A DNA stretch of 64,000 bases from a virus, in the IMG/VR virus record IMGVR_UViG_3300029787_005266, positions 1 to 64,000 of that record. One strand, written 5' to 3'. Made by a program: the position numbers and the translations under genes. Under the pieces are notes generated by a model. That model had not been told where the DNA came from. It saw nothing but the letters and a program-made list of their open reading frames with translations, and searched no databases. Below, piece after piece: positions 1-30,800 of the stretch (positions within the stretch are counted from its first letter, which is position 1; each line of letters begins with the position of its first letter).

Positions 1-615
1 TTTAGAGATTATGGTCGCAAAGACGTAGAATTTGTTGTTGTTATAAATGAAAATAAAACAGAAATTATTTCTTATCTTGCCAAATACAAAGACAGATACA
101 ATATTTCATTTGTTTATCAAAATCCAAATGAATACGAATACACTGGAGCAATAAAAAGTGCAAAGCATCTTTTTGGTGAGCATAATATTGTTTTACTGCC
201 AGACACTATTATGACACTGTCACCTAACACTGATTTGTTTGAAACTGTAAAACATTCCTTGACTGAAACAGGATTCACTTTCTTATACAAACAAGAAAGT
301 AATCAAGATGTTTTAAAAACCAAAGGAGCCTTGTTTGTAAACAATGAAAACATTGTTGAACAATATGAGGACAAACCAGAATCGAACTTCAAATATTACA
401 ACGCCTTTTGGTGTGCATTCGCATTTAGAAAAAGAGCATTTGATTCATGCATGACGTTTATGGAAAAATCTACGTTGAAACAGAAAATAAATCATGCTGA
501 AATAGAACACACACCTATCTACAAGTCTAAAGGAATAAAAGTGGATGACTATGTAGATCTAGGTACATGGGAAGAAATAAGAAGAGTATTACTTGATGAA
601 AAAAATAGTGAGTGA
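1..615 (+). CDS. Sugar-nucleotidyltransferase-like protein, 5' end missing
   Basis: The reading frame is open from the first base of the window, so this is the 3' part of a longer gene; the internal ATG at 211 is not the real start. The visible 204 residues look like the middle and end of a nucleotidyltransferase of the glucose-1-phosphate thymidylyl/uridylyltransferase type: a segment YEYTGAIKSA followed by a strand and LLPDTIM, where this family has its metal-binding Asp, and a terminal VDLGTWEEI typical of these enzymes. The family activates sugar phosphates to NDP-sugars. The N-terminal signature loop lies outside the window and cannot be checked. It overlaps the next gene by about 20 bases. 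It fits with the epimerase and DegT aminotransferase near the right end of the window. The exact substrate is unknown. Confidence 0.6.
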   Translation, partial: FRDYGRKDVEFVVVINENKTEIISYLAKYKDRYNISFVYQNPNEYEYTGAIKSAKHLFGEHNIVLLPDTIMTLSPNTDLFETVKHSLTETGFTFLYKQESNQDVLKTKGALFVNNENIVEQYEDKPESNFKYYNAFWCAFAFRKRAFDSCMTFMEKSTLKQKINHAEIEHTPIYKSKGIKVDDYVDLGTWEEIRRVLLDEKNSE

Positions 616-1162
616 TTGTGATGGCGTACTGCTAGACTGGTCCTTTGCATTTGATGTATGGATGGCCGAACAAGGATATCAAAAATTACCTGGAGCAGAC
701 AATCATTTCAAACAAACTTTGCGATATGCAATTGATGAAAAAGAAGCACAGAATCAAGTGTCTCAATTCAATGAATCAGGATCGGTAGGATATCTTCCTG
801 CTTACAAAGACAGTGTTGAGTACGTGACCAAATTTGCTGAAGATGGATACAGGTTTGAAGTTATTAGTAGTTTACACATGGACAAGTACGCACAAAAGTT
901 ACGCACACAAAATTTAAAACATATATTTGGGGATGTATTTGATTATGTAGATTGCAGTTTAGATTTTAGAAAAGGAAAAAAAGATGTGTTGGAAAAACGG
1001 TATGCAGGCACAGGATATTTGTGGTTAGAAGATTCTGTCGCTCATGCTGAAGCAGGAGATGAAATAGGCATGGACACATACATATTTGACCATCCATACA
1101 ATAGACACTATACTGGAAAGAGAGTACACAACTGGAAGGAACTTTATGACACCACACATTGA
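596..1162 (+). CDS. HAD-superfamily phosphatase, 5'-nucleotidase-like
   Basis: This protein of 188 residues opens with KKIVSDCDGVLLDW, the DxD motif I of HAD hydrolases (nucleophile Asp and general-acid Asp). A late LEDSVAHAEAGDEIGM supplies the acidic motif IV that binds Mg2+. Size and layout resemble small 5'(3')-nucleotidases, which remove phosphate from nucleotides, but sugar-phosphate phosphatases have the same fold. The ATG at 596 is chosen; a TTG directly before it (593) is in frame. It overlaps the preceding gene, and its end overlaps the start of the purine nucleoside phosphorylase gene. That neighbour suggests that the two act in succession: nucleotide to nucleoside, then nucleoside to base plus ribose-1-phosphate. 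HAD assignment is secure; the substrate is inference. Confidence 0.8.
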   Translation: MKKIVSDCDGVLLDWSFAFDVWMAEQGYQKLPGADNHFKQTLRYAIDEKEAQNQVSQFNESGSVGYLPAYKDSVEYVTKFAEDGYRFEVISSLHMDKYAQKLRTQNLKHIFGDVFDYVDCSLDFRKGKKDVLEKRYAGTGYLWLEDSVAHAEAGDEIGMDTYIFDHPYNRHYTGKRVHNWKELYDTTH

Positions 1163-1844
1163 AGCCAATAAAGGTGACTATGCTGAAACAGTTTTATTGC
1201 CAGGAGATCCTCTAAGAGCCAAATGGATTGCTGAAACATTCTTTGAGAATCCTGTACAGGTCAACAGTGTAAGAAACTGTTTAGGTTATACAGGCACATA
1301 TGCTGGCAAAAAAATTTCCGTACAAGCAGGTGGTATGGGAATGCCCAGCAACGCAATTTACATTACAGAATTGTTTAAAGATTATGGTGTGCAAAACATA
1401 ATAAGAGTTGGCAGTTGTGGAGCAATACAAAAAAATATAAAAGTTGGTGATATTGTTGCGGCAACTACTGCATCAACTGATAGTGCTATGGGCAAAAATT
1501 TAATCCCTGGATTCACATATTCGCCTAGTGTTGATTTTGATTTGCTGAAACGTTTCCTTAACAACTGCAAACAGGCCCACGTTGGCGGTATCACATCGAA
1601 TGATTATTTTTACCAACCAGATCCTAAATGGTGGAAACATTGTCAGAAATACAAAATTCTTGCAGTAGAAATGGAAACTTACATTTTGTACACACTGGCA
1701 GCTCAGTATGGCAGAAAAGCATTGAGTGTGAACACAGTGTCTGATCATTTGGATCCTAATTGGTTAGATCCAAAGAAAAATTTATCTTCTGCAGAAAGAG
1801 AAACAGGATTTACAGAAATGGTAGAGGCTGTACTTGCAATATGA
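1146..1844 (+). CDS. deoD: Purine nucleoside phosphorylase, DeoD type
   Basis: The 232-residue protein follows E. coli DeoD from end to end, and its length is normal for the family (about 235-240). Visible landmarks are MTPHIEANKGDYAETVLLPG at the N-terminus, GDPLRAKWIAE (phosphate site), SVRN, IIRVGSCGA (phosphate-binding Arg), VEMET (nucleoside site), TVSDHLDP with the general-acid Asp, and SSAERETGF with the matching Arg. The enzyme splits purine (deoxy)nucleosides with phosphate into base and (deoxy)ribose-1-phosphate in the cytoplasm. The ATG at 1146 is chosen over an upstream TTG at 1086 because homology starts there and a strong GGAAGGA lies just before it. All catalytic positions look intact. 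A phage copy would salvage host purines or lower the pool of a nucleoside. Confidence 0.93.
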   Translation: MTPHIEANKGDYAETVLLPGDPLRAKWIAETFFENPVQVNSVRNCLGYTGTYAGKKISVQAGGMGMPSNAIYITELFKDYGVQNIIRVGSCGAIQKNIKVGDIVAATTASTDSAMGKNLIPGFTYSPSVDFDLLKRFLNNCKQAHVGGITSNDYFYQPDPKWWKHCQKYKILAVEMETYILYTLAAQYGRKALSVNTVSDHLDPNWLDPKKNLSSAERETGFTEMVEAVLAI

Positions 1845-2536
1845 TCTGTATAGCAATTCCATCACGTGGAAGACCAGAATTTTTGGAAAGACTGTGTGGC
1901 ACAGCAAGGGCCACAGCAAACAATTGGAAACAAGTTGTAATCAAATATTATCTTAATGATGATGATCCTTTACTAGGACAATACAAAAAAACACTAAAAA
2001 AATTACACAAACAACACGGAGATTCTGTACAATGGGAAATTGGTCCAGATCAAAACACAATACAGAGTTGGAATCAACTGTGTGAATCTACAGATGCAGA
2101 CTATTATATGTTGGCAGGAGATGAAATACAATTTATCACGCAAGATTGGGACACAAAAATTACGGAAACAAAAAACAAATATCCTGATGGCATTTTTTGT
2201 ATGGCTGTGTTTGATGGCAGAGAAAATAGAGCAGAATTACAATTATGCACACAACCAATCATTACCAAAGAATGGCGTGAAGCATTAGGTTATTTTTGGG
2301 CACCTTTTCTATGGCATTGGCACGTGGATCATTACACAGGAGAACTGGCAAAAGCAATTGATAGATTTGTGTTCCGCAAAGATATCTTTATCAAGATCAA
2401 AAAAATGAAAGACAAAACAGCAAAACGTATGCGTGGTCAAGGAGTGTTTGATCGCGATGAATGGGTGTACAACAAACACAAAGAATTATATTTTGATTTT
2501 GACGTTAAAAAACTCTTGGACAAAATTCAAAATTAG
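1841..2536 (+). CDS. Glycosyltransferase-like protein (GT-A fold)
   Basis: This protein of 231 residues starts MICIAIPSRGRPEFL, the first strand and loop of GT-A family 2-like glycosyltransferases. YYMLAGDEIQF around residue 90 sits where the metal-binding DxD normally lies; here it reads D-E. The second half has WAPFLWHWHVDHYTGEL, a pattern typical of phage and bacterial glycosyltransferase-like proteins. The ATG overlaps the TGA of deoD as ATGA, so translation is probably coupled; I reject the upstream GTG-type start because it would lie inside deoD. The sigma70-like promoter of the symporter gene is embedded in its 3' end. The acceptor and sugar are unknown. Confidence 0.65.
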   Translation: MICIAIPSRGRPEFLERLCGTARATANNWKQVVIKYYLNDDDPLLGQYKKTLKKLHKQHGDSVQWEIGPDQNTIQSWNQLCESTDADYYMLAGDEIQFITQDWDTKITETKNKYPDGIFCMAVFDGRENRAELQLCTQPIITKEWREALGYFWAPFLWHWHVDHYTGELAKAIDRFVFRKDIFIKIKKMKDKTAKRMRGQGVFDRDEWVYNKHKELYFDFDVKKLLDKIQN

Positions 2537-2544
2537 TATATAAT
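2517..2544 (+). promoter_or_regulatory. Sigma70-type promoter for the symporter gene
   Basis: TGGACA (2517-2522), a 16-base spacer and a perfect TATAAT (2539-2544). The -10 box ends six bases before the ATG at 2551, so the expected transcription start falls on the start codon itself. No Shine-Dalgarno sequence lies between. The -35 box is in the end of the upstream gene. Confidence 0.6.
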
Positions 2545-2550
2545 TGCGTT

Positions 2551-3990
2551 ATGGATATTACAACATTATTCCCACTTTTTGCTCCTTCGACAGGGATCAG
2601 CATTTTGCTTGTGTACGGGTTGTTTGCGTTCGCGATGACTTACTACTTTAGTCGAGGATACAACGACAACAAAACATCCTTCTTAGTAGCAAGACGTGAA
2701 CTTGGCACATTTCAAGGTTCGCTCAGTGTAGCGGCCGCTTGGTTATGGGCACCGGGACTATTCATCTCGGCTCAACAGGCATATGTAAATGGACTGGTAG
2801 GACTATTTTGGTTCTGTTTAGGCAACTTCTTAACATTAGGAGCATTTGCCTATTTTGCCAAACGCATCAGAAACAACGAACCAAAAGGATTCACTTTCTC
2901 TGGTTATCTAAGAGATCGTTTTTCAGGCAGAGTACAAAGTTTATTTGTGGTTGAAATGATGTTGTTGGCAACCTGTGCCTTTGCAATCAATCTATTAGCA
3001 GGATCAAAAACAGTTGAAGTACTCACAGGAGTGGATTACACACTGGCAACATTCTTAATGGCAGGTGTGGCAATACTGTATTCATTTCGAACAGGTCTAA
3101 AAGCAACTGTGATCACAGAAATAATAAAAATTATTGTTGTATGGATTGGAGTATTGATACTAGTGCCATGGGCAATCTCTAGTGCAGGTGGCTGGGACGT
3201 TGTTGCCGCAGGTATTGGTGGTAAAACAGGATTAGGTGGATCAATTTTTGGAACATCATTTGCATGGGGCATATTCACTGGATTTGGTGCGGCCGCTTTC
3301 TTAGGACACCTAGGTGGACCATGGGGAGACAATTCATTCTATCAAAGAGCATTTTCAATCAAGGTAGGATCGATTATTCCGGCATATGTTATTGCCTCAT
3401 TTGTGTTTATTGTGATTCCAATCTGCATGGGACTGTTAGGCTTTTTGGCCGCAGGATCAGGACTAGATATTCCAGGTAATATGGTAGGTACAACCAACGC
3501 AATCGTGATAGGAACTTTCCTTCCACCGATAGCATCAATCATATTTGCTTTTATGATATTTGCTGGTTTGGTTGCAATACTTGACTCACAGTTTGCATCA
3601 GTGGCCAACATGACTGGACATGACATATACAATCAATTTAAGACAGGTAGTCCTATCAGTTCTGCACGTTATGGCATGATTGCTTTAGCAATAGCGGGTC
3701 TTATAGTGGCGAATATTCCGGGTATGCAGTTAGTGTATCTGTTTTTATTCTTTGCTGTTTTACGTGCATCTGTGTGGTTACCATCGATGATTGCTGTGCT
3801 AAAACCACATTGGATCACAGAACAAGGAATGTTTTGGGGAATACTGATACCAGCATCTATAGGTGAAGTCCTGTTTGTTGCAGGTAAACTTGGTTACTCA
3901 GACACTGCTTTCACAGGAACATTGATTGCTATTTTCGGCTCTCCTGTGTTAACATTGTTGATAAGCAAGTATGGAAAAAGAACCACGTAA
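2551..3990 (+). CDS. Sodium:solute symporter (SSS family)
   Basis: This is a hydrophobic membrane protein of 479 residues with roughly 12-13 predicted transmembrane segments, close to the usual 450-550 of the SSS family. AAAWLWAPGLF near residue 62 resembles TM1 of the family. ILDSQFASVANMTGHDIY near residue 345 matches the conserved segment (…S.LAS..N..T.DIY) that provides Ser/Thr ligands for the second sodium site. Members couple Na+ entry to uptake of sugars, amino acids, urea, acetate, choline and others; the substrate cannot be read from sequence. No truncation or frameshift is visible, so it should be functional in the host inner membrane. It has its own promoter and lies beside nucleotide-salvage and glycan genes. 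Such a transporter is unusual for a phage. Confidence 0.9.
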   Translation: MDITTLFPLFAPSTGISILLVYGLFAFAMTYYFSRGYNDNKTSFLVARRELGTFQGSLSVAAAWLWAPGLFISAQQAYVNGLVGLFWFCLGNFLTLGAFAYFAKRIRNNEPKGFTFSGYLRDRFSGRVQSLFVVEMMLLATCAFAINLLAGSKTVEVLTGVDYTLATFLMAGVAILYSFRTGLKATVITEIIKIIVVWIGVLILVPWAISSAGGWDVVAAGIGGKTGLGGSIFGTSFAWGIFTGFGAAAFLGHLGGPWGDNSFYQRAFSIKVGSIIPAYVIASFVFIVIPICMGLLGFLAAGSGLDIPGNMVGTTNAIVIGTFLPPIASIIFAFMIFAGLVAILDSQFASVANMTGHDIYNQFKTGSPISSARYGMIALAIAGLIVANIPGMQLVYLFLFFAVLRASVWLPSMIAVLKPHWITEQGMFWGILIPASIGEVLFVAGKLGYSDTAFTGTLIAIFGSPVLTLLISKYGKRTT

Positions 3991-4654
3991 ACTTTTAATT
4001 GTAACAGGGCCACAAGGATCAGGAAATCATCTCTGGGCAAAAATATTCTCTATGCACGCCTCTGTAGAGGGGTGGAATATGATGCGTAAAGAATGGCAAG
4101 GGCATCATGAGGAACCGTTTAACGAATATTGGCAAGAGCCGGAAAAATTAAAGGATTTAGACATAAGTGAGAAACGTAATTTTGTTACATCTATTTCATG
4201 TCCATACTTCAAGGACAAGAAACCACAGATACCGCAATACGCAAAATTTATCAGACACGCAAAGAAAAAGTTTGATAAAGTGGTTGTTTGCATTATAGGT
4301 AGAGACAGAGACATATTAAAAATTCAACAAACAAGAGTACGCAAGGAACATACAACGCCCATGGCTTTGGATGAATTTGAACGTTTTGACAAGACAGTGT
4401 GCGAAGGATCCTTGGAAGACGTTAACCAATTTGTAGGTGCTGAAAACCTACAATACGCTTCAACAGAATTACTTTACCTGTATGGAGGTCAGTATCTAAA
4501 AACATTACAAAAGAATTTAGACTTTCCTGTTGGTTGGCACTATGAAACATTACTTAAAGATTATTTGAAGCAAAACACAAATGCCAAATATCTTAAAGAA
4601 ATAGAAAAAGGTGACTTTGATGATGAAGTTGCTGAGGCTTCAAACAGATCCTAA
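3971..4654 (+). CDS. P-loop protein, sulfotransferase- or kinase-like
   Basis: The 227-residue protein begins with a strand and a Walker A-like loop, LLIVTGPQGSGNHLW, at residues 8-22. The Asn-His in place of the usual Lys-Ser/Thr, together with EGW, SISCPYF and IIGRDRDIL further on, is more like phage sulfotransferase-type P-loop proteins (PAPS-binding loop) than like kinases. A later DFPVGWHYETLLKDY is the kind of C-terminal segment seen in this marine phage family. It overlaps the symporter by 20 bases and converges with the methyltransferase gene, overlapping it by 15 bases. It may modify a small molecule or glycan; the reaction is unproven. Confidence 0.55.
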   Translation: MEKEPRKLLIVTGPQGSGNHLWAKIFSMHASVEGWNMMRKEWQGHHEEPFNEYWQEPEKLKDLDISEKRNFVTSISCPYFKDKKPQIPQYAKFIRHAKKKFDKVVVCIIGRDRDILKIQQTRVRKEHTTPMALDEFERFDKTVCEGSLEDVNQFVGAENLQYASTELLYLYGGQYLKTLQKNLDFPVGWHYETLLKDYLKQNTNAKYLKEIEKGDFDDEVAEASNRS

Positions 4655-5179
4655 TTTATTTTTTTGTCCGTGGAAAAAAATTCGGGCATTATCATTCTCC
4701 ATTGCAATTACATCTAAAGAATATTCATAACACAAATCTCTCAAATAACTCTTGCTCCATGGAAAAAATGTTACACCTTCTGCCACAGGATTTGTATGTC
4801 CTATTCTTGAACCGGGATTAAACCTGCCAAAAAAATGACCTTTGTTTTTAAGATGACTTACTGATTTTGCAAACTGTCTACGCACCATGAATTCAGATCC
4901 AAAATTGATACTGCCTAATGCAAGTACAATATCCCATTCCTTTGTTCCACAGTTAAAATTCTCAATGCTTATCTTTTCATCTGCTTTGTCATTGTATGGA
5001 TCTATGCCATATAGATTAGGAATCTTATCTTTCAAATCATTAAATCCACATCCTATGTCCAGCACAGACTCAGGCTCGAGTTTGTTTATTTTGTCAACAA
5101 GACTCCAACCACTGTGTTCAAACTTGGTCCAATCTGGTTTCCAAATGCCAGAAAAATATTGTTCTACTGCATCGCTCAT
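4640..5179 (-). CDS. Class I SAM-dependent methyltransferase
   Basis: The 179-residue protein carries the SAM-binding motif I VLDIGCGFNDL around residue 40, then LYGIDPYND (acidic residue that binds the ribose), and WDIVLALGSINFG as motif IV. The fold is a compact Rossmann-type methyltransferase; the acceptor is unknown. The gene has its own near-consensus promoter (5186-5213) and no Shine-Dalgarno sequence. Its 3' end overlaps the convergent P-loop gene. No clear terminator separates the two. Confidence 0.75.
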   Translation of the reverse strand: MSDAVEQYFSGIWKPDWTKFEHSGWSLVDKINKLEPESVLDIGCGFNDLKDKIPNLYGIDPYNDKADEKISIENFNCGTKEWDIVLALGSINFGSEFMVRRQFAKSVSHLKNKGHFFGRFNPGSRIGHTNPVAEGVTFFPWSKSYLRDLCYEYSLDVIAMENDNARIFFHGQKNKLGSV

Positions 5180-5185
5180 ATTAAT

Positions 5186-5213
5186 ATTGTAGCATTTTAT
5201 TGTGAATTGTCAA
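5186..5213 (-). promoter_or_regulatory. Sigma70-type promoter for the methyltransferase gene
   Basis: On the minus strand: TTGACA (5213-5208), 16-base spacer, TACAAT (5191-5186). The -10 box ends six bases before the ATG, placing the expected start of transcription at the A of ATG. The -35 lies inside the 3' end of the gp46 gene. This is one of the best matches to the sigma70 consensus in the window. Confidence 0.7.
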
Positions 5214-6960
5214 CAAATGCATATGATGTAAAACCACCTTCTTTGGTTACTTTTAACACATTGTTTACTCGTCCTTGCAGTTCATCTCTGTGTGATATCA
5301 AATAGATGTTCTTGTGTCGCTCTCTGCAAATTTGTTTCAAAATCTTGATTGCATTTTCTACGCCTGCTGTATCCATGCCCGAATCAACTAGTTCATCAAT
5401 AAACAATGTATTCACACTGTGATACAACATTTCCCACACATCACGGAATGCCCAGCACAGACTTAGAATTAATCTGTTGCGTTCGCCTCTGCTTAAATTG
5501 TCAAAATCTAAATCTCTACTCATCTCTGTTATTTCCACACTGAGATCTGATTGGAATACAACTTCATGAGGCAGTCCTGTTTTGTCTAAGTAAAATGCAA
5601 GACGTGAATTCAAATAAGTCAAGTTTTGATCAATCACCTTTTTCCTTATGAATGAATCTTTGGAGGTCAACAGTTTGTACATGAATTCTTGATGATCTTG
5701 CAGTTTACGTAGATTGTTCATTTTGTCATATGACACTTGTTGTACTGCTGAAGTTTTTAATTCAGCAATTTGTTCTGCATATGGATCATTTTCTTTTGTT
5801 TTTGTTTCAAGTTGTTGTCCCAAGTATTCAACTGTGCTTTCATGTTTGTAGGCCTCTTGGGCAGTTTCATAATATGTGTCTGGTTGATCAAGATCACCTA
5901 TAGTGCCTATTTTTTCATTCAGTCTTGTTTCTTGTGCAACTAATTCTTCCACATAAGTTTCAAATTGTTTTTGATCGTCTTGATATTTTTGTACAAGTGC
6001 TTGATGTTTGTCGTCTTCCATTGTAGCACCGCATGTTGGACAAAGATTGTCTACAGTTTTTCCTATGTTTTCTAATATGTCTGTAAGTTGTTTGGTTGAT
6101 TGTTTTATAGCCGTTTGCACAGTTGAAAGTTCACGTTCCCAAGTTCTTTTCTTGTTATAGTTTTCCCTATATGAATCTAATCGTTTATGTCGATCAATCT
6201 CATCCTGTATGTCCACTTTCATTAATTCTTCTAATGATTGTGCTAGTTTGTCTATTTCTTCTTTTTGTGTGTTGGCCCAAGCACTACTTCTAATGTTTAA
6301 AGTATCAATGGAAGATTGTATTTTTTCGTTGTTGCGTTCCAATTGATCCAAACGTATTTCTTCTTCTTTGATCACTTCCTTTGTTTCTTTTAATTCTTCT
6401 TTTAGTACTTCTGCTTTTTCAGACAGCACAGTGATTCCTAACAGTTGTTCAATTATATCCTTTTGTTCTGCCGCTTTCAACCCAAAGAATGGAGGTGAAT
6501 ATGTGTGCAGTGCTACAATATTTTGGAACATTATATGACTCATGCATAATATTTTTGTGATGTCTTTTTGTGTCTCACGTGAATCGCCCTGTGCTTCGTC
6601 ATTTATTTCTTCAACACCATCTACGTAAAATTTAATCAGTGCTGGTTTTCTGCCACGTTCGATTTTATATTTTTTGCTGTTGATTTCAAACTCACAAGAC
6701 ACCAACATATTTTTGCCGTTTGTCTTGTTTACAAGATTGTCACGTTTGATGTTTGTAAGTGCATCACCAAATAGAGCAAATGATAGTGCATTTAGAATAG
6801 TTGTTTTGCCAGTACCATTTCTTGAACCAGCATCATCACCACCTAGGTCTATGTTTTGCCCTAGTACCAGTGTCAAGTCATGTCCTTCAAAATCCAATGC
6901 TTGGGTTACGTTGCCCACACTCATAAAGTTTTTAACAGTCAATGACTTAAATTTAATCAT
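5197..6960 (-). CDS. 46: Recombination endonuclease subunit, gp46/SbcC/Rad50-like
   Basis: The 587-residue SMC-type ATPase shows Walker A GSRNGTGKT at residues 45-53, long heptad-rich coiled-coil arms, a zinc hook CPTC at 307-310, an ABC signature LSRGERNRL, and Walker B NTLFIDELVDSGMD near the C-terminus. This is the complete Rad50/gp46 architecture, and its length fits T4 gp46 (560). With gp47 it resects DNA ends for recombination-dependent replication and degrades host DNA. Its ATG overlaps the stop of the gp47 gene as ATGA, so the two are translationally coupled and made in similar amounts. Confidence 0.95.
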   Translation of the reverse strand: MIKFKSLTVKNFMSVGNVTQALDFEGHDLTLVLGQNIDLGGDDAGSRNGTGKTTILNALSFALFGDALTNIKRDNLVNKTNGKNMLVSCEFEINSKKYKIERGRKPALIKFYVDGVEEINDEAQGDSRETQKDITKILCMSHIMFQNIVALHTYSPPFFGLKAAEQKDIIEQLLGITVLSEKAEVLKEELKETKEVIKEEEIRLDQLERNNEKIQSSIDTLNIRSSAWANTQKEEIDKLAQSLEELMKVDIQDEIDRHKRLDSYRENYNKKRTWERELSTVQTAIKQSTKQLTDILENIGKTVDNLCPTCGATMEDDKHQALVQKYQDDQKQFETYVEELVAQETRLNEKIGTIGDLDQPDTYYETAQEAYKHESTVEYLGQQLETKTKENDPYAEQIAELKTSAVQQVSYDKMNNLRKLQDHQEFMYKLLTSKDSFIRKKVIDQNLTYLNSRLAFYLDKTGLPHEVVFQSDLSVEITEMSRDLDFDNLSRGERNRLILSLCWAFRDVWEMLYHSVNTLFIDELVDSGMDTAGVENAIKILKQICRERHKNIYLISHRDELQGRVNNVLKVTKEGGFTSYAFVDNSQ

Positions 6961-7967
6961 AAATTTTTGTATATCTCTAATAGTAAATTGCTGTCATAAT
7001 GATCCGAATCAACAGCCATGATTTGATTATGCACAATTTCATCTATTGATTCAAATGCTTGTGGAACTTCAGTTGAGTCATATTGTGTCATATCTCTTTG
7101 TTGTATGAATGTCATTTCACGCAGTTTGTATTGTCGCATAAAAGTATCTTTTACAAAGTTAGAATCTTCATATGTAATATCAGTGTCTATGTCTACACGC
7201 ACATAAGCATTCTTCTTCAGTATGGATGAGTTGTGTAGTAGTTCACTTAGTGATGCTGTTTGATATTTCGGACAGTCGGTCCAATCATGATAGACAGGAT
7301 CACCACCATGCTCTAGTTCCATCCATCCACGAGCAAAATCATTTGCATCTGAATAGTTATGCGGAAATGAATTACCTATATAATGAATGTTTGATTTTAC
7401 TTGTCTTTTGTGAAAGTGTCCTGAAAATACATAATCATGATGTTGTAAATGTTCTGCTCTCAACTCATTAGTGTCAGGCATTGATACCATAGCATTCATT
7501 AAGAAATGGGGTAACTCAAAGTGACCAAACACGTACGGCATTGATTTAGTCTCTTTGAGTTCCTTCCATTCTTCACCAACTAACCACGGGATAAACGCAC
7601 AATCCTCTGTGAAGTATGGTTCGTGAATAATTTCTAAGTTGGGAATATTTTTTGCCCATTCGACTGAATTGACAACTCTTGAATCTTTAAAATACAAATC
7701 ATGATTACCTAATATAAAATAAGTTTTTTCAAATGCCTTTGCAAGTTTTTCTAAAGATCTTAATGAGTATCCAAGTGTGTCTATGTTGATAGTTGCCCTG
7801 TGATGATGCCAGTCACCCATGAATATGAATGTTTCACATCCTTTGGCTTGAGCATCTTCAATAAACCAATCAACAAATCTCTCACAGTCTTGATTGAACT
7901 GTCTTGAGTTGCCTTTGTTGCCGAAATGTATGTCAGTGAAAACGGCCGCACGTTTAAATGTCTGCAT
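6957..7967 (-). CDS. 47: Recombination endonuclease subunit, gp47/SbcD/Mre11-like
   Basis: The 336-residue protein is a calcineurin-like metallophosphoesterase with the full metal-ligand set: FTDIHFG (DxH), FMGDWHHH (GD), LGNHD, FGHFELPHF and FSGHFHKRQ (GHxH). The length matches T4 gp47 (339). It is the nuclease partner of gp46; the complex trims double-strand ends. The order 47-46 on one strand with an ATGA overlap is the T4-like arrangement. A promoter-like pair of hexamers lies just upstream and overlaps the end of the gp55 gene region. Confidence 0.95.
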   Translation of the reverse strand: MQTFKRAAVFTDIHFGNKGNSRQFNQDCERFVDWFIEDAQAKGCETFIFMGDWHHHRATINIDTLGYSLRSLEKLAKAFEKTYFILGNHDLYFKDSRVVNSVEWAKNIPNLEIIHEPYFTEDCAFIPWLVGEEWKELKETKSMPYVFGHFELPHFLMNAMVSMPDTNELRAEHLQHHDYVFSGHFHKRQVKSNIHYIGNSFPHNYSDANDFARGWMELEHGGDPVYHDWTDCPKYQTASLSELLHNSSILKKNAYVRVDIDTDITYEDSNFVKDTFMRQYKLREMTFIQQRDMTQYDSTEVPQAFESIDEIVHNQIMAVDSDHYDSNLLLEIYKNL

Positions 7968-7975
7968 ATAAAAAT

Positions 7976-8004
7976 ATTTTACTATCTTATCTAAAGTGTG
8001 TCTA
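7976..8004 (-). promoter_or_regulatory. Sigma70-like promoter for the gp47-gp46 pair
   Basis: On the minus strand: TAGACA (8004-7999), 17-base spacer, TAAAAT (7981-7976). Each hexamer has one mismatch to consensus. The -10 ends eight bases before the gp47 ATG, so the leader would be about two bases. Part of it lies in the last codons of the gp55 gene. Confidence 0.45.
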
Positions 8005-8803
8005 GTCTCTTTTTACGTTCTTCTTCTTTTTCATCTTCGAGTTTGATCAACTCTGCTTGTTTCAGTTCGTGTTCTATCTGTCTAGTATGTGATGGCATTA
8101 AACCATTCTCTTGCAGTATGTCATCACGCAGTGCCTGATTTTTCTTTTCCACATTCAGTATTCTTGTGAATGAATTTGTAATGGCCGCTGTGTAATAAGC
8201 AAACGGATTTTCTGATTTAGATTCATCAAACTGCAAACCAATCTGTGACAGTTGCATCAGTGCTTGTCCTTGCATCTCGTCATTGTATGTGTATCCACGC
8301 CAGTTACCTCTAGTACCATATCTTTGTACCAGCAACAGAAACATTTTGGCCAACTTGGGGGTCATGGCGCCATGATCAACAGAAAAATGTCCATTCTCCA
8401 TGCCACCTTTCCAGTGTGATTTGCCTACTAGTATCAACTTGTCCTTGTCGTTGTAACGCCAATGTTGGAATGGAGGAAAGTTACACTTAACCTTTGATTC
8501 TGCTATGTTTTTTGGTTTTGCTTTTCTATTTGAATTTGGCACATGATCAAATGTCATCACCCTAAAAACCAAATCTTGTTTTGTAATAGTCTTCGGATTG
8601 ATTTTTTCGCCAGTTGCTTTTTCCATTTTTTTGACTCTGTTACGCCTTGCTTCTGCCACGGACCTAATATTAATTTTTTTCAACTCGGGCACAATCACAT
8701 CAAAGTCACTGTCTTCATCTGAAATGTATGAACTGTATTTTTTCTTTGACTTGTGTATTTCCAACAGCAAGTCTCTGTTGTTTAAGTATTTGTTTCTAGC
8801 CAT
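7991..8803 (-). CDS. 55: Late-transcription sigma factor, gp55-like
   Basis: The 270-residue protein contains GNWRGYTYNDEMQGQALMQL and, further on, ENPFAYYTAAITNSFTRIL. These are the region-2 segments by which T4-like gp55 binds core RNA polymerase and reads the late promoter box. It is longer than T4 gp55 (185 residues), with a charged N-terminal extension of about 80 residues and a charged, helical C-terminal tail (EDEKEEERKKRLDTL). It replaces the host sigma factor late in infection, together with gp45 and gp33 equivalents that are not in this window. The gene is transcribed divergently from the baseplate operon, whose first late box (8837-8844) overlaps this gene's own -35 region. Confidence 0.9.
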   Translation of the reverse strand: MARNKYLNNRDLLLEIHKSKKKYSSYISDEDSDFDVIVPELKKINIRSVAEARRNRVKKMEKATGEKINPKTITKQDLVFRVMTFDHVPNSNRKAKPKNIAESKVKCNFPPFQHWRYNDKDKLILVGKSHWKGGMENGHFSVDHGAMTPKLAKMFLLLVQRYGTRGNWRGYTYNDEMQGQALMQLSQIGLQFDESKSENPFAYYTAAITNSFTRILNVEKKNQALRDDILQENGLMPSHTRQIEHELKQAELIKLEDEKEEERKKRLDTL

Positions 8804-18868: not shown

Positions 18869-21800
18869 ATGGGTAAGAGCACACGCAAATCGCAAACTCT
18901 GTTACCTGAAGTCTTCCAAACCAATAAAAACAAAGACTTTTTAACAGCTACTCTGGACCAATTGATTGAGCCAACCAAGACACAGAAGTTATCATCTTAT
19001 ATAGGACATACAACAATACCCTCGTACAAGGCAACGGATGGGTATGTAACAGAACTTACTGATGACAGAACCAATTATCAATTAGAGCCAGCAACACTTT
19101 ATAAATCAAATGGAATAGATGTTGACTTCGCGGCCCCATACATTGATGTAATCAATGATATTGAAGCACAAGGTGGTTCAAAAATTAAACATGACAGATT
19201 GTTAGCGAATCAAACATACTCTTATGCTCCACCTATTGACCATGACAAATTTGTAAACTATAGAGAATACTTTTGGATAGCACAAGGATTATCACCAATC
19301 AGATTACAACCAGGCACGCCTGGAGCAACTATCGAATTCGATGTTGAAAATAACGCCAGTGGGGCATATGTGTTCAGTCATAAGACTGCAAATAATCCTG
19401 ACATTATTGTTTACAAAGGAAACACATATAAATTTAACGTTGATGCTTTAGGACATCCATTTTCGATTAAGTCACAGTACGGTACTGGTACACAAGACAT
19501 GCTGGATGAACCTATGGTTGAAAATAATGGTGCAGACAGTGGCACTGTTACATTGAATGTGCCAGCAAGTGATTCTAGTACACAATATCCTACAATAATT
19601 TTTTATCAGTGTCAAAATCACATTGGAATGAAAGGAAGAATTATTATTAGAGATCTTGCAGATGAAGATTTTGACCCAGAAGAAAATTTAATAGGCACAA
19701 CAGGGTTTACTGATTATACTGGATTAGCAATTACAAACGGATTGCCTGTCAGTATAGGTACTGATGTTACAGAAACATATAAAAATAAAACATATTATAT
19801 AGAAGGTGTAGGCACATCAACGACACTGACAGCAGAAAGTGAAATTAGAACTTATGGTACATGGGCACAAGAAATAGGTGCAATTTTTGATGAAGGTGGC
19901 ACAGAAGGATTTGATACAACAGGCTGGGATAATTCAACCGGCCAATTGGTTGCTGTTGATTATTGGACGATTAATAGATCAGCACGTGACAGAAATGCTT
20001 GGTCGAGATCAAATAGATGGTTTCACAAAGATGTAATTGCACTTTGCAATGGAAAAAATAACTATGCTATTCCAATTTCGGAAAATCAAAGAGCAAAGAG
20101 ACCTATTATAGAGTTTGAAGCAGGTTTGAATTTATACAATCATGGATACACTCATAGGCTAGTTGATGTTGTTGACACACAGGTTACTGATGCTCTGTCA
20201 CTTGTAAGTGGAACGATAGGATTTATTTCAGATGGCACTGTGTTGCGTGAAGATGATTTGGTTGTGTTCACACAAGATACTAAGCAAAAAAACAAAATTT
20301 TCAAGGTGAAATTTTATGAATTAGGAGATTCCACTGCAGGCAATCCTTCGAGAATTCATTTACAAATTGTAGATGATTCTACAGCAATAGCAGATGGTAC
20401 TTCTATCGTAGGAACACGCGGTAATAACCAAGGAATAGCTTACCATTATTCATCTGAAGATTACATATGGACCAAATCGCAACAGAAGACAAGTGTACAG
20501 CAAAAACCTTTATTTGATGTCTTCACAGATACACAAATATCATTATCTAATTTAGATACATTTATTTCTACAGACTTTGTAGGATCCACTGTGTTTGAAA
20601 TCAACACTGATGATTCACAAGGCACACCAGACACTATCTATGGTACAAATGTGATATACTCGCGACTAGGATTATTGAGTGACATGCAAGTAAATGACAC
20701 TTTCAATACTGACACTATCACTTATGTACAAGGCACAGCACCAGTGTCTGAAAACATTAAAAAATATTATCTTAGAAAAACAAATCAATATGGCGAACAA
20801 GAATTACTTACAAATTACAGAATTACCAAAGCAGATGGTAAACAACGAGTAGTAGAACAATATGTTGCTACTGCTGACCAAAATCAATTCGAAGTAGGAT
20901 CGTATCAGGATCCAAACTCACTAACTGATCTAACATTGTTGGTGTTTGTGAATGGAATCAAAACAACAGCATATACCACAGAGGCAGGTGTGCAAGGCAA
21001 ATTGTTTGTAAAATTAAACACAGGGTCTACACAAGACGACATAGTCACAATCAAATCACATTCAACAGTTGGTATCAGAACCTTGAGTGGATATTATGAA
21101 GTTGCTCCTGCGGCACAAAACAATCCATTGAATGAAAGTGTTGGCACATTAACAATTGGTGATTATGGAAAACATTGGTATTCTGCATTAGAAGAAGTAG
21201 ATGCGTTGACAGGAAACATAGTTGGTGCAAATAATTCACGTGATATCAAAGAAATCATTCAACGTGGAACAAAAATTGTGCAACATGAAGGAAGTATGCC
21301 TTTGGCTTCTTTATTCTTACGTGACGACACAGTCAACATTGTAGAATCTTGGAGAAAGACAGGTATAGATTACGAACAATTCAAATCTAACATTTTAAGA
21401 AAAGCAGAAACACTTGTAATGACAGAGTCTGCATCAAAAAACCTTGATATAATTTTAGATGAAATTAACGCAAACAAAAATTCAAGTTTTGCTTATTATG
21501 ATTCAGATATGATTGCATATGGTGATGACAAGACAACACTGTCATACACAGTGGTTGATCCTGCAGTTACTTTGTATCCTATTACATCTGCATTTGATCT
21601 TACTGCATTATCTCAAAAAGCAATTTACATATATGTGAATGGTACGCAATTGGTACATGGACGTGATTATGAATTTGTTGGACTTGACGACTCTGCTAAC
21701 TTTATAGGTTTTGAAATAAAATCTGCTTTAGCAACTGATGACAAAATCACTGTAGATGAGCATGACACAACAAATGGATCGTTTGTACCTACAACACCTA

Positions 21801-24800
21801 GTAAACTAGGACTTGCTCCGGTATATGAACCAACACTAGAAAATGATGACATCTATCTGAACGAAGATTCTTCAACAGGTGGATTATTGACTATTAAAGG
21901 ACATGATGGGAGCAGAACTATTGGATTTGGCGACTTTAGGGATGATATTTTATTAGAGTTTGAAAGAAGAATATACAATAACATTAAAATTACTCATAAT
22001 CCTGAAGCAGTTGAATTTTCTTATGGCAGATTCAAAACTAATCCGTACACCCGTACAGAAGTAATCAATGCATATGCACGTGATTTTTATTATTGGACTG
22101 GGACAAATGGCATTGATTATGTGTCCAACGACATTTATCAAAATGGTGAACCATTCACATGGAACTATTCAGACTATTCTAAAACAATCAATAGAACAAC
22201 AGACAGTGATCCATTACCTGGACATTGGCGTGGTGTGTACTTGGAATATTTTGATACTGTGTCTCCACACTCTACTCCATGGGAAATGTTCGGCTTCGGA
22301 GCAAAACCTGGTTGGTGGGATGACAGATATGGACCAGCACCATACACAAGTGGCAACAATGTTTTATGGAATGATGTAGCAAGAGGCACAATAGCATTTG
22401 GTGACAGAGCGGGCACATACAACAAATACAAACGTCCTGATGTGTATTCTGTAATTCCTGTAAGTGAAAATGGAGACTTAGTGGCTCCACCCAATGCTGG
22501 ACTATTAACTGATGATACTATTAACTCACTAAATTTATCACGCAAATGGTCATATGGTGATATGGGTCCAGCTGAATGGGCATGGCGGTCATCATCATCA
22601 TGGAGATTCGCTGAACAAATAGCAAAATTCTTAGCACACCCTGTGAAGTACGCAGGAGTATTTTTTGACATATCAAGGAATAACACAAATGCAATAGGGC
22701 AAAAGATATACAACAATGAATACAGACAATCACCATCGAATTATGTGCTTCCATCAACGGCTCAAACTGCAGGTTATATTAATGTAATTCACGACTATGT
22801 AAAATCGCAAGGATTAAGCGGCACAGCAATAGAAGTAAGATTACAAAATTTAAGTGTACAGTTGGTTTATAAATTGGCAGGATATTCAAACAAACAAAAT
22901 TTAGAAGTCAAACTTTCTTCATCTTCTCCTTTGTCGACGAACCAATCAGTGTTTACACCAAAAGAAAATTATAATTTGATATTACATAAATCTGCTCCAA
23001 CTTCTGTGTCTAACTATTCAGGTGTAATTGTTGAAAAATCAACAAACGGATACAAAGTGAGTGGATATTCAAACTTTAATCGTGCGTTTAAAATTTATGC
23101 TCCTATCACCACACGTGATGCCAATGTCATTGCAGTAGGACAAACCACTGACTCGTTTTCAGAATGGCAACCTGGAGGTTCTTATGCTAAAGGCTGGATA
23201 GTAAGAAATGCTGGAATATTTTATAGAGCATTAAATGGAGTATCATCTGGTGATACTTTTGAAGAAAGCAATTGGTCAGAAATTGGAGCAGTTTTACCAC
23301 TGAAAGGCGGAGTCAGTGCAAACAAATTTACTAATTACCACACAAACATTACCACAGTGCCATATGGTACAGAATACACAAGTGTTCAAGACCTTGCAAA
23401 CTTTGTATACGGATATGATCAATATCTGCAAAGTATAGGATTTGTGTTTGATGAATATTCAACTGATTTAGAATTGACAATGGATTGGGATTTGTCAGTC
23501 AAAGAAATTTTATTTTGGACTACACAGAACTGGTCAAATGGTTCTGTTTTATCTGTATCACCAGCCAGTTCACAATTGACACATGTAAGACCTGCATCAA
23601 TAGGCGATGATCTGGTGCAAGGTGATAGATTTTACACTGTATTACAGCAAGATGGATTGCCTATTATTCCTAAAAATTTAAGAGTAAGCAGAGCAGATGG
23701 ACAATTAGTAATTGGTACTAATCCTAATGAAGATGGAATCTATAATGCTGATATTCGTACAGTACAAAAAGAACATTTATTGGTGCTTGATAATTTGACA
23801 TCATTCAAAGATGTCATATATGATATTGAACTTGGTGCAAGACAAGAAAGATTAAAATTAGTAGGATTCAAAACAGCAGACTGGCAAGGAGATTTATATT
23901 CACCTGGTTTTATTATTGACAGAGCACAAATATCTGATTGGGAACAATACAAAGATTATAAAATTGGTGACGTAGTAACGTACCAGGGAAATACATATGT
24001 TGCAAAATATAGTCATACATCTACAAATAACTTTGATGCTGTACAGTTTGCAGTCAAAACTACACCTGTTCCTGATATCATTAATAACTTAGACAACAAG
24101 GCTGAATCGTTTAGAGATTTTTATTCTTTAGACACTGAAAATTTTGATGCTGAACAACAAAAATATGCCCAGCACTTGATAGGATACCAAAAACGTGATT
24201 ATCTAGTAAACTTAGGATTTGAAGAAGCAACGCAATATAAATTGTATCAAGGATTCATACGAGACAAAGGTACAAATCAAATCATAGATAAAATTTCATT
24301 GCCTACCCAATTCGGCCAAAACGCAACATTCTCTCTGTATGAGGATTGGATGATAAGGATTGGAGAATATGGTGGACACAGAACAAAAAATCAATACGCA
24401 TGGCCAGTAGACGGCAAAAATCATACCGAGCTTCAGCATGTATATCAAATCACAGATGCTAGTAAAGATGATACTGGTGTGGTGTTAAATGTTGCTAATA
24501 ATAAATTTAACAGACGTCCTTATGAAATTCCAGCAGAAAAGTTTGCTGAGTACTCATATGATAGTTCAAATTATCCGTCCAACATATTCAAAATGGGCAC
24601 AGCAGGATATCCTCAAGTTGACCAAGTAGACTTCACGGTGTGGAACACTACTGATATGACTACACTAGATGTTGACACATTCAAAGAAGGAACCACAATT
24701 TGGATAGCAAACACACCAGCAGGAGACTGGGATGTGAGACGTGTAAATTTAACTAACAATTTAATTTTGTCTTACATACAATTTGATGATAAAGTCCAAT

Positions 24801-27800
24801 TTACTACAACTGAACAACATGGTCTGAATGCCGGTGACTTCATTGCAATATTAAACTTTGGTACACAAGCTGACGGGGTGTACGAAATATCTTTACCTTT
24901 AGATTCTACTGACACTGCATATAAATTTACAATCACTTTTGAAGGTACTCTAGATAGTTCAAGTCTGGACGGAGACCTTGCTAAAATTCAAACTATTCGA
25001 ACTGCCGACATTGATAATTTGCAGGCCATTACACCTATCAAAGGATGGCAAACCGGGGATTATGTTTATGTGGACAATGCATATGAAACCAATGGCGGCA
25101 GTTGGAAAGTGTGGCAACGTGATGCATTGGGTGTGTTCACTTTTGAAGATGCATTAGGAATCAACACAGACCTAGCTGATAAGAAAAATGACAATGAAGA
25201 ATTTGGTGGCAATCTTGCTTTATCAACAGACACCAGATATCTTGCAGTCACGGCAAAAGGAGCAGAAAGAGTATTGATATATAATAGACCAAAATCATCA
25301 GATGATATATCTATGTACACACAGATTGTTCCTGGCATAAAAAACACAGCAGGTGACGACGCAGATGAATTTGGAACTTCTGTTGCTATTACTGACGATG
25401 GCGGAATAATTTTAGTTGGGGCACCCAACACACAAGACATAGTCAAAATGACAGCACCTAATCCTTCACCAGACAGCACAAGATCATTTGCTAGAGGACA
25501 AAGTATAATAGGTGGCGACACTGGAGCAACTGGTACAGTCATGCGTTACGAAGAAGGAGAAACGCAAGATACATTCTTTGTAAAAGTAACCAGCGGCATT
25601 GACTTTGATGACAGTACACTGAATGCAAATGACTCATCATCTGTATCAATCATTGACAAAATAATTACCGATGGTGATAGAACTGCCCAAGGTACTGTAA
25701 ATGTGATTACACAAGATACACAGAAACAATTTGCCATATCAGCAAACCTTATTTCACCAAACCTTAAATCAGGAGAACGTTTTGGAGAAACAGTTGGCAT
25801 ATCAGGTGATGGAGAATGGATAGTAGTTGGGGCACCAGGAGGACCAAATGACTCAACACTTGCTGATCAAGGACAAGTCTATGTGTTCAAAAGAGGTATA
25901 TCGGATTCAACAGGTTTAGCACAATATGATCATTGGCAAACTTTGGCGCCTAATACATTGTCACAAGTAGGAGCAAGATTCGGTGAAACCTTACAAATAT
26001 CTAATGATGGTTCTGTAATTGCTGTTGGAGTAAAACTATATGATGATAGCACATTAGCAGATCAAGGTATTGTGTTTGTGTGGAAAAAATCCGGAGCCAC
26101 ATATATTGAAGTAGAAAATCTAAGGCAAGACACTGCCCAAGCAAATACAAAATTTGGTACATCAATTCAATTGAGTGGAGATGGTACAGATTTATTAATT
26201 GGATGTCCACGTGAGACAGTTACACAACCTAATCAAGGCACAGTGTATCATTACATTAACCAAACATCAACACATACTGGTGATGGTTCTACGACAGCTT
26301 TTGTGCCAACATTTACAGTAGAAAAATACACAAGATTATATGTAAGCACAGGCACAAACAACTGGGCCTTTGATGATTCATCATCTCCACTATCAACAAC
26401 TTATCATGTAGATGAAGCAACTAATACAGTCACTCTTTCATCTACTCCAGCATTAGGTGACACAGTGATTATTTCACAGTACCAGAAAGCACAAAAGATT
26501 GTGTCACAACCTGCTGAAGTTGAAGGACAATTTGGAACCACTGTTGCATTAAGTGGCAACAACTTAGCCGTGTACTCGGCAAATGGAAATAATACTAGAA
26601 TCACAACATTTGATAAATTTATGGACGATGGTTCTACTGAATTAAAAGAAACAACATTTGATGCTGGAGGCACAAGTTTCTCTGCCACTGTGTTGGATAC
26701 AGGATCGGTTCAATTATATTCTAAATATGATACATCATATTTGCACAATGAAACATTATCATATGCAGGAGCGACACTTAATGATTCATTTGGACAAGCA
26801 TTAGCAATCAGCAGTCAAAATGTTTATGTTGGAGCACCTGGAGTTGAAGTGGTTGCTAACGATAGTTCTACTAGAGCAGATGCAGGCCAAGTGTATTACT
26901 ATGCAAAAACAAGCACATCAGATTATTGGACTGAAAAAGTTACACAAAACGGTTTAATGAATCCAAATTTGGTTGAGAAAACATTCATGTACACTAGAGT
27001 GAATAATCAAAAGATTATAGACATGCCACGGATAGATCCTGCCAAAGGTTTATTTTTTGCTGAAATAGAAGAAAACATAAGATACAAAACACCTTTTGAT
27101 CCTGCAAATTATGATTCTTGGAACGATGAACATGTAGGTGAAGTTTGGTTAGATACAAAGCAACTTAAATTTTTATGGTATGAACAAGGAGAGTTAGAAC
27201 AAAGACTTTTAAACTGGGGGAAAATACATCCTGCAAGTGTTGTATCAGTAAAAGAATGGGTGCGAAGCATTTATACTCCTACAAATTACAACATATTATC
27301 AGCAACAGTTGAAGGCCAACAACAAGATATCACAGGCACAGCACAAACAAATTTTGTTACACAGAATGTTTTTGACGATGTAAAAAATACGTTTGTTGAA
27401 AGATATTTTTACTGGGTAGAAAAATCTTCTACAGTACCTGCAGTTGACAATAGATCTATCTCTACGGCACAAATTGCCAGCACAATTGAAGATCCAAAAT
27501 CATATACTGAAAATTTCAGTGCTGTCGTTGACTCTAATGCAGTTTTATTAAGTATCCAGCCAAGTGTGTTGACAAATAAAAATATTGCTTTTCATATTGA
27601 AAGCACTACAGACACTGACCCAATTCAAGCACATGAAGAGTATGTATTGTTATCAGAAGGTGATCCAAACGTTTCTTTGCCAAAAGATCTTGTACAAAAA
27701 TATCACGATTCATTAGTTGGTGTAGATGTAAATGGTAGAACAGTGCCTGATTTAGACTTCCCGGAAGACATGCGTTTTGGTACATTGAATAGACCTAGAC

Positions 27801-30800
27801 AATCAATATTCAAAAATAGATTGAATGCACTGGAAACTGTGGTTAAATTTATCAACACAAGATTGATATTACAACCATACGCAACACTGGTTGACTTGAG
27901 TTTGATGACTGCATCGGATCCTATTCCTAACATACTATTAGGTGGCTACGATCAAATAGTTGACACTGACATAGACTTAGCCTATATCAATACAGAATCA
28001 TTTATAGCTGGTCGCAAAGTGTTAGTCACAACAGATTCTTTGGTACAAGGATGGGCAATTTACAATTATGATGGCGAACAATTTATCAGAGAGCGTAACC
28101 AACAGTTTGATACAAATAGATATTGGTCATATGCTGATTATTATGCTAATGGCTACTCATCTTTCACAGTGCCAGATATTATTGTAGCAGACGAAAAGGC
28201 AAAAAAACAACTGTCATCTGATATAGGACAAATTGTTAAAGTCAAGTCATCTTACAATGGGGCTTTTAGATTATATGTTACCACAGCAGATGGATATGAT
28301 ATTGTAGGAATTGGCAATGGCACAATTCAATTGGATGCTTCTTTGTATGATTACGCAAGTACATCTAGAGGATTTGGTGGCGAAGCATATGACTCTTTAA
28401 CATTCGATGAAGAAGCAGTTCAAGAACTAAGAAATATTCTACAGGCAATTAATTCGTTTGAAGAAAGTTCAGACTTTGATGCGTCAGAAGTATTCTTCAC
28501 TGCGATCAAAGTTGCACTGGCTCAAGATCCTGGAGCAGACTGGGTTGTTAAATCATCATTTGTCAAAAAAACAAACGAAATAGAATCAATATCTACCCAA
28601 TCTGAATTCCAATTAGATGTGTCAAACTCAGTTGATGCTTTCTTTGATGAAGTACTTCCATACAAGACACAAGTGCGTGATGATGTTAGCAAATATGGCA
28701 TCAAAGAAACAATGGAAGGCGACTTCACTGACTTTGACAATCCTACGTATTGGGACAGCGACCTAGGAAAATATGTTACTCCGACAGTTGTAGCAGGTGA
28801 CTCAACTTACTTCGATGTGTATGAAAATAATCCACACAAATTTTTCTCTGACAATTACAAATACAAAATTGTTGAAATTGCTGTAGACAAAGGCGGAGCA
28901 GGATACACAGTTGCTCCTAACATAACAATATCTGGAGGTGGAGGTTCGGGCACAGTTGCAAAAGCAAATATTCAAAACGGAGCTATTTCTAGTGTAAAAG
29001 TTATTACTCAAGGCACAGGTTATTCTACTAATCCAACAATTACCTTAACAGGCGGTGGCGGAGGTGTTACAGAAGAAGCAAAAATACGTGCGGTGCTTAC
29101 AAATAACAAAACAAGAAAACTTAATGAAACAATCAAGTTTGACAGAGTAGCAGGCAACCATGCACTTGCTGGTGGCCCAGCAAGTATAAAGACTTGGACA
29201 AAAGATACAGTATTTGCTCAAGGTGACAACATCAGATATGAAAACGAAATATATCGTGCAATATATTCATTCAAATCCGGAGCCAAATTTGATGATGATG
29301 TGTTACTAGACGACTCTACAAACAACAATGATTCGTCAACAGCAAATCGTTATCAAGCTTTAGCATTATGGACAGCGGCTGACAGAATTCATGCTTTCTA
29401 CGAACCAACAACTAATATGCCTGGTTTGATAGGAGATGGATCAACCACAATAAATGCATATGCACAACTGATGACTGGATTAGAATATCCAGGAACCAGA
29501 TTACGTGCGACTACATTCCAAGCTGGTGAAGGATACGATGAAGCAAACTTTGATGTATTAGCATATGACAAAGCTACTGATGATCCATATGCTGATGCTG
29601 ATACATTGACTGATTTGGATTTAGTTGTTGATTCAAAAACATTCACAACAAATTTAGGAATGCGTCCAGAAGATATCAATGTTGTAGGTGACGCATTTAT
29701 TTCTGAGTATTCCGCTCACGCACCAGAAGAAGTTTTACCAGGCGGTGTGTACGATACAATGGATATGAAAGTGTTTACAAGATCAACTGATGGAGCAAGT
29801 ATTATACAAAAGAGAAATTATTATGGTGATGGATCAACAGTGTCATTTGCAATTCCAGAACCAAAAGCTCTAGAAGGTATTAGAGTGTTTATAAATGATC
29901 ATTTCAAAGCACAAACTACTGATTACACTGTGGATTATAAAGCACAAACAATTACATTTACAACAGCTCCAGAAACAAATTCAATAATAAAAATTGTTGT
30001 AATTGGGGTATCAACTGATGACCTATTAGGCAAGTTTCAAGTTGAAGCAGATGGATCAACCACAGCATTTGATATCAATGTTGCATTCCATTTAATAAAA
30101 CAAACTTACGTGTTGGTGAATGGTGTCAAAACATCTCACACAATATCACAAACATCAAATGCAAGAACAACAACGGTAACATTTTCTTCTGCTCCTGCCG
30201 ATGATGCTATTATAGATGTGTACGCATTTGATTTGCCAGCATCTACAAAAGCATTTTCTGAAGTTGATCAAACAGAATACTCATTACCAACAGACTCTAC
30301 AGAAATTAAAATTCAACTAACAACACTTCCGGGAGCGTTTGGACCATTCCATCACAAAGTTTTTGTTGAAGGAGTCAGTGGAGACAATAATGGCACTGGT
30401 CGATACAAGTTGACACCACCACAGGTCAAATACTACACAGGTGATGACACAAGTACCGTTTACTTGTTGCCAGACGAACCTATTGGTAGTAATTTGGCAA
30501 CACCAAGCAACATTGAAGTTTACAAAAATGGAGTCAAATTATCTTTGGCCGAATACCAACTGCAATTTAATGCACAAAACAAAGGTGTAATAAACTTTAA
30601 CACAGCACCAACAACTACTGACAATCTTGCCATAGTGCTTCTGTTAGGCATGGATTATACAGTTGATCTAGATGGAACACTTACACTACATGGCGATTGG
30701 TCAGATGGCAGTACAATGCATAATGAAAAAATCATCGTGACCACATTTAACAATCATGATCAAATGACCATGCGTACAGAAGTATTCACAGGAGCAACAG

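Follow-up and report, generated by a model that had tools for sequence, protein, structure and literature searches.

We analyzed a window of 64 kb taken from a 91-kb virus record, in which a gene for a sodium:solute symporter (SSS) family protein lies among phage genes. The features around this gene are as follows (window coordinates, strand):

593..1162, plus strand: NT5C-like 5′-nucleotidase, neighbor (PF06941 at 9e-5, just under its cut-off; phrog_420)
1146..1844, plus strand: DeoD-type purine nucleoside phosphorylase (PNP), neighbor (NF004489 at 2e-87, above its cut-off)
1760..2536, plus strand: glycosyltransferase, upstream neighbor (phrog_14945), ending 14 nt before the SSS ATG
2517..2544, plus strand: promoter-like box TGGACA-16-TATAAT (11/12 match)
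2551..3990, plus strand: SSS/SSF-family symporter, intact open reading frame of 479 aa (PF00474, phrog_20720, AlphaFold, Foldseek, 58 IMG/VR relatives)
2734..2775, plus strand: TM1 motif AAWLWAPGLFISAQ, residues 62-75, near-invariant among marine phage copies
3565..3591, plus strand: TM8 segment GLVAILDSQ, residues 339-347, where Ala342 and Ile343 stand in place of the canonical Na2 Ser/Thr
3971..4654, plus strand: P-loop, sulfotransferase-like protein (GPQGSGNHLW), overlapping the SSS 3′ end by 20 nt
4640..5179, minus strand: SAM-methyltransferase-like protein (VLDIGCGFN; Pfam match weak and in one relative only, 0.013)
5197-6960, minus strand: gp46, phage core gene (phrog matches for gp46, gp47 and gp55: phrog_77, phrog_100, phrog_12791)
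6957-7967, minus strand: gp47, phage core gene
7991-8803, minus strand: gp55 late sigma factor, phage core gene

The initial annotation had called the gene an intact SSS transporter, and this call held. PF00474 aligned to the 479-aa frame from profile position 1 to 405 (total length 406; 2.4e-18; 66.6 bits against the curated cut-off of 22.8), so that the protein belongs to the SSF family by a match spanning the whole domain, and it matched phrog_20720, a phage family with no function assigned, at 2.7e-80. Its TIGR00813 score of 99 lies under the cut-off of 184 and the PutP and PanF cut-offs are far above its scores, so that it is a divergent SSS member. An AlphaFold2 model built from a 17-row alignment (mean pLDDT 84, pTM 0.85) contains ~13 long helices, as in a LeuT-type fold, with TM-scores mostly of 0.70-0.81 to solved SSS members. 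Foldseek against the PDB ranked plant DUR3 at the top, followed by CHT1, SGLT and SiaT. Between the window symporter and its four closest relatives (L001-L004), dN/dS is ~0.05, a ratio from which we conclude that the gene is under strong purifying selection. In locus L055 (5096-6458), the SSS frame is broken into two, by a frameshift or a sequencing error.

Homologues of gp46, gp47 and gp55 occupy 5197-8803, confirming the 1.2-kb spacing to the symporter that had been claimed, and these three genes and a baseplate hub protein are all within 11 kb. The nearest deposited phages, judged by gp46 and DNA polymerase, belong to the jumbo phages (PA5oct, Phosso and Atu_ph07, among others) and show 42-49% identity. 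Contigs L001-L004, which come from other metagenomes, have the same order of nucleotidase, PNP, glycosyltransferase, SSS, P-loop, methyltransferase-like, gp46, gp47 and gp55 genes, with one additional gene 3′ of SSS in L001 and L002; the L003 contig (G004) encodes a 97%-identical symporter together with a T4-type portal and gp23. By gene content, the symporter locus is phage DNA of a large marine bacterial virus. The opposing view, that host DNA was misassembled into the record, was the doubt raised in the initial annotation. SSS genes are indeed frequent in bacteria, as our control genomes showed, and we found nothing else in its favor. It is refuted by the gene order repeated in four contigs from other metagenomes, and against it also stand the position of the symporter in a phage-only clade and the absence of a close cellular homologue from the searches made (genome-contig pattern scans, plasmids); we regard misassembly as next to impossible. 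Elsewhere in the window, a likely deoxysugar pathway at 59758-63006 (minus strand) comprises a DesII-like radical-SAM protein (TIGR04426 at 5.8e-96, under its cut-off), a PseC-like aminotransferase and a nucleotide-sugar epimerase, and 18869-31795 (plus strand) is a single, very long open frame (4308 aa).

The sigma70-type promoter that had been assigned to the gene fared less well. The TGGACA-16-TATAAT box is a good match and is kept in L001-L004, its four close relatives, only. However, a scan found 20 promoter-like sites compared to 19.3 in shuffled DNA, which is not above chance, and the gap from the -10 element to the SSS ATG is 6 nt, so that the transcript would be leaderless. Many other SSS loci have a ribosome-binding-site-like AGGAG at the box position instead. 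A promoter upstream of SSS, local to the lineage of the window, is possible.

When we scanned IMG/VR, the gene was found in other phage genomes: 58 loci carry a symporter relative with 47-97% identity, and an alignment-based scan overlapping this one yielded 75 loci. Among 50,697 deposited phage records there was a single match, with 33% identity; following it up revealed another clade, with 87 loci from phages and prophages of the gut and other anaerobes. The symporter has the distribution of a phage auxiliary gene, present in phage genomes and recurrent, and it recurs across several phage lineages. A maximum-likelihood tree of 53 rows, including 11 cellular and 2 PDB rows, placed the marine rows (100/100), the gut rows (100/99) and both together (100/99) each on one side of a branch, apart from the 13 cellular and PDB rows. 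On this tree, the marine and gut phage symporters make up a group with no cellular or PDB member, a statement that holds for the 13 sampled relatives only, as several cellular branches are long and the cellular sampling is thin. Pattern scans of genome contigs for cellular symporter relatives found none, and plasmid homologues at 26-29% identity were the sole cellular-side relatives that the searches turned up; with 13 rows, a closer cellular relative may exist.

The initial annotation had further described a conserved sodium-site segment, and this description failed. We read the Na2 positions by alignment to S364 and S365 of vSGLT, whose TM8 equivalents we take, from work on vSGLT and PutP, to supply the hydroxyls that bind Na+. 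In the window protein, both hydroxyls are replaced (Ala342, Ile343), so it lacks the two-hydroxyl TM8 site of Na+-coupled SSS members. Among 62 marine phage copies, the first position is Ala in 35 and Ser in 27, and the second is Ile in 39, Val in 21 and Thr in 2, meaning that the second hydroxyl is gone in 60 of 62. The 13 cellular and PDB rows have Ser (12) or Thr (1) at the first position and Thr (10), Asn, Ala or Ser (1 each) at the second, the sole Ala being that of AtDUR3 (Ser-Ala). PutP, PanF and vSGLT resemble the phage symporter in family, fold and membrane topology but keep Ser followed by Ser/Thr/Asn at this site. The gut and anaerobe clade (MT836198 and 87 IMG/VR relatives) is likewise phage-borne, is the sister group of the marine clade, and has the WxWAP and GD-x-x-F-x-QR motifs of both clades; it differs in having Ser-Thr at Na2 (70/70) and in its operon of PAPS-reductase-like and ParB-like genes.

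The claim of solute import with Na+ thus stands in part: an SSS-family importer is well supported, and Na+ coupling is weakened by the loss of the Na2 hydroxyls. Coupling to Na+ through the usual site is unlikely in the window symporter, and the Na2 loss taken with the likeness to DUR3 would make H+ the more likely driving ion. Alternatively, the Na2 change could mark the protein as a facilitator or as a membrane protein that does not transport. As for a proton site, we dropped the claim for His253, whose place in the structure could not be fixed; 57 of 62 marine copies have His at this position, and none of the other rows sampled does.

Plant DUR3 (PDB 9j7c, 9j7d, 9x5u, 9vim), deposited under the name urea-proton symporter of the SSS family, is the best match to the phage symporter by both profile and fold. 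In a search with a profile from the phage alignment, DUR3 reached 121 bits, and the molecule ranked after it 62 bits. Both proteins have a tryptophan-rich TM1 and G-x-FW motifs, and both are missing the second Na2 hydroxyl; W64, W66, A67 and S73 of TM1 are common to the two, and W64, W66, F86, W87, K184, D260 and N261 of the phage symporter are also found in AtDUR3. The differences are that DUR3 has 704 aa compared to 479 aa, with ~20% identity over the fold alignment, that the window protein is without the first Na2 hydroxyl too, and that DUR3 is not the nearest neighbor on the tree. There, AtDUR3 and a Pusillibacter row form a pair, and the Pararhizobium and Sulfitobacter symporters, which have no substrate assigned, are closer to the phage rows than DUR3 is, although these branches are long and the cellular sampling is thin.

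The DUR3-side position offers a lead on substrates, with urea, amides and other small polar nitrogen compounds as the first candidates. In its strictest form, this lead would make the protein a phage DUR3 that imports urea or simple amides and feeds nitrogen to the infected cell. The profile and fold matches and the seven residues in common with AtDUR3 speak for such a role, as do DUR3-like plasmid genes that adjoin formamidase, C-N hydrolase and agmatinase genes. However, the identity is low, the tree places other symporters nearer, and we saw neither a urease nor an amidase next to the phage symporter; we consider a dedicated urea or amide importer quite unlikely.

We examined the genes beside the symporter in 72 marine loci, that is, those with sequence 3′ of it; some of these are near-duplicates, so that the neighborhood counts are not independent. 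The P-loop gene is no more than five genes from SSS in 66 of the 72 and is the next same-strand gene in 50, with 49 of these 50 pairs overlapping. The model of its protein (pLDDT 87.5) matched the PAPS-dependent sulfotransferase 4gox in Foldseek (3.8e-5), with a TM-score of 0.45, low enough that "sulfotransferase-like" describes the fold and not an activity. A relative of the methyltransferase-like gene is present within five genes of SSS in 56 of 72 loci, often upstream and on the same strand. As the flanking phage genes vary among loci (gp46/47/55, NAD-ligase-like and others), the association of SSS with the P-loop gene does not reflect one conserved genome region. Distances in the two families correlate (Mantel r 0.51, p 0.0005), a correlation that could also have its source in shared phage ancestry. 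A P-loop partner specific to SSS was rejected, the P-loop family being much commoner than the symporter.

In several loci and their relatives (L038, L041, L043, L044, L049), a gene upstream of SSS encodes a barrel-like protein that has a signal peptide, is beta-rich and ends in a C-terminal aromatic residue or leucine; in L038 (323-949), L041, L043 and L044 it is directly upstream. No Pfam or PDB match was found for it. This gene possibly encodes an outer-membrane barrel or channel, and a role of the operon in transport across both membranes is hinted at mainly by its presence. Uptake of nucleosides, suggested by the PNP and NT5C neighbors and by an early idea of the barrel gene as Tsx-like, was not supported, as PNP and NT5C are mostly confined to the lineage of the window and the barrel gene is without a Pfam or PDB match.

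Relatives of the P-loop protein are encoded in at least 555 viral stretches, and we compared 77 of the closest loci for SSS and Tct content. SSS is lacking in 56 of 77; 24 of these 56 have Tct genes, and 32 have neither. TctA/TctC was found in 0 of the 21 SSS-bearing P-loop loci and in 0 of the 72 SSS loci, an absence that is weak evidence because the contigs are fragmentary. Across 22 large contigs, TctA is present in 0/14 with SSS and 4/8 without, a comparison that is suggestive only, since some of the eight SSS-less contigs were chosen after Tct had been seen. The identity of TctA is firm (PF01970 at 3.9e-80), and of two TctC clusters one is firm (7.3e-17) and the other assigned by resemblance only. 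Large phage contigs with TctA/TctC near the P-loop gene include L161, L179, L184, L181 and L198, among others. Mapped on the P-loop tree, the presence of SSS has to change six times, and well-supported branches force at least two of these changes. These patterns point to an apparent exchange of SSS with a TctA/TctC importer beside a common P-loop partner.

A further possibility is that the genes next to the importer (P-loop, methyltransferase-like and oxygenase-like) run a phage modification pathway (nucleotide, glycan or small molecule) and that the importer provides a building block for it. The gene cassette is conserved, FolE and QueE are encoded in the virus record of the window, and in the gut clade (L067-L146) SSS shares a conserved operon with ParB-like proteins and two proteins of PAPS-reductase fold, the larger PAPS-like gene being downstream of SSS in 68 of 75 loci. 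However, the partners often occur without an importer, as the P-loop loci lacking SSS and Tct illustrate, their enzyme assignments are weak, and the P0003 gene near FolE/QueE is found in phages both with and without SSS. We judge a modification role unlikely. A specific link to 7-deazaguanine DNA modification was rejected because P0003 relatives occur in both sets of phages. P0003 itself (512 aa, L292) resembles tRNA-guanine transglycosylases by eye only, and the reading of it as DpdA-like likewise came from visual inspection, the family and PDB searches having given no match. Outside the window, L292 7869-18311 (~70.9-81.3 kb of the record) encodes QueE, GTP cyclohydrolase I, IMPDH/GMP reductase, a phosphoribosyltransferase and two amidinotransferase/ADI-like genes. 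L293 3706-4125 encodes a plastocyanin/azurin-like copper protein that carries a signal peptide.

Whether the protein transports at all also has to be weighed, as the Na2 hydroxyls are lost in most marine copies; it might act in superinfection exclusion or sensing. Core motifs that are near-invariant across 47-97% identity and the purifying selection argue against a non-transporting membrane protein, and both the apparent TctA/TctC exchange and the pairing with a barrel-like gene fit transport, leaving this alternative distinctly improbable.

Our preferred reading is that the symporter is a LeuT-fold secondary importer, expressed in the infected cell, that pulls a small polar solute through the inner membrane, and we consider it probable, though with clear reservations. 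The phage would express an SSF-family importer of the DUR3 side in a probably Gram-negative host; the solute would probably be a nitrogen-bearing or otherwise nutritious organic compound, moved in the presumed inward direction, and the partner genes would use it or regulate its use. That the P-loop partner is also present where no importer is seen counts against this reading. A phage-carried SSS-family importer, as the initial annotation had envisaged, is well supported by the recurrence in phage contigs, the purifying selection and the barrel-like pairing in some relatives, and a limiting nutrient is a plausible substrate. Recurrence in related viruses with a near-constant P-loop partner suggests that the viruses bring their own uptake pump. 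The most likely role of the window symporter is that of an auxiliary importer, possibly coupled to protons, for a small polar solute. More tentatively, and here we would lean against rather than for, marine jumbo-type phages may keep a dedicated slot for nutrient import with exchangeable content, in which fixed partners accompany either an SSS protein of a phage-only lineage and altered ion coupling or TctA/TctC, sometimes with an outer-membrane barrel of their own.

Phage genes for nutrient uptake are an established idea (PMC6359870), and a tctA domain match has been reported in SUP05 viral contigs (PMC4164917). The phage uptake genes pstS, amt and tctA (PMC6359870, PMC4164917) have in common with the symporter the idea that a phage gene alters host uptake, but belong to different protein families. 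In the open-access literature that we searched, no phage SSS transporter is described, which is itself no proof of absence; the "SSF" genes of an Atacama virus paper are sporulation-type proteins and not symporters.

If our reading is right, viral control of uptake extends past phosphate-binding proteins to complete secondary importers, which selection maintains and which are exchanged from phage to phage. The symporter lineage would then be a natural case in which the usual sodium site has been dropped, and if the import slot is real, one viral operon would in some cases span both host membranes. Phages may in this way alter which dissolved compounds infected marine bacteria consume.
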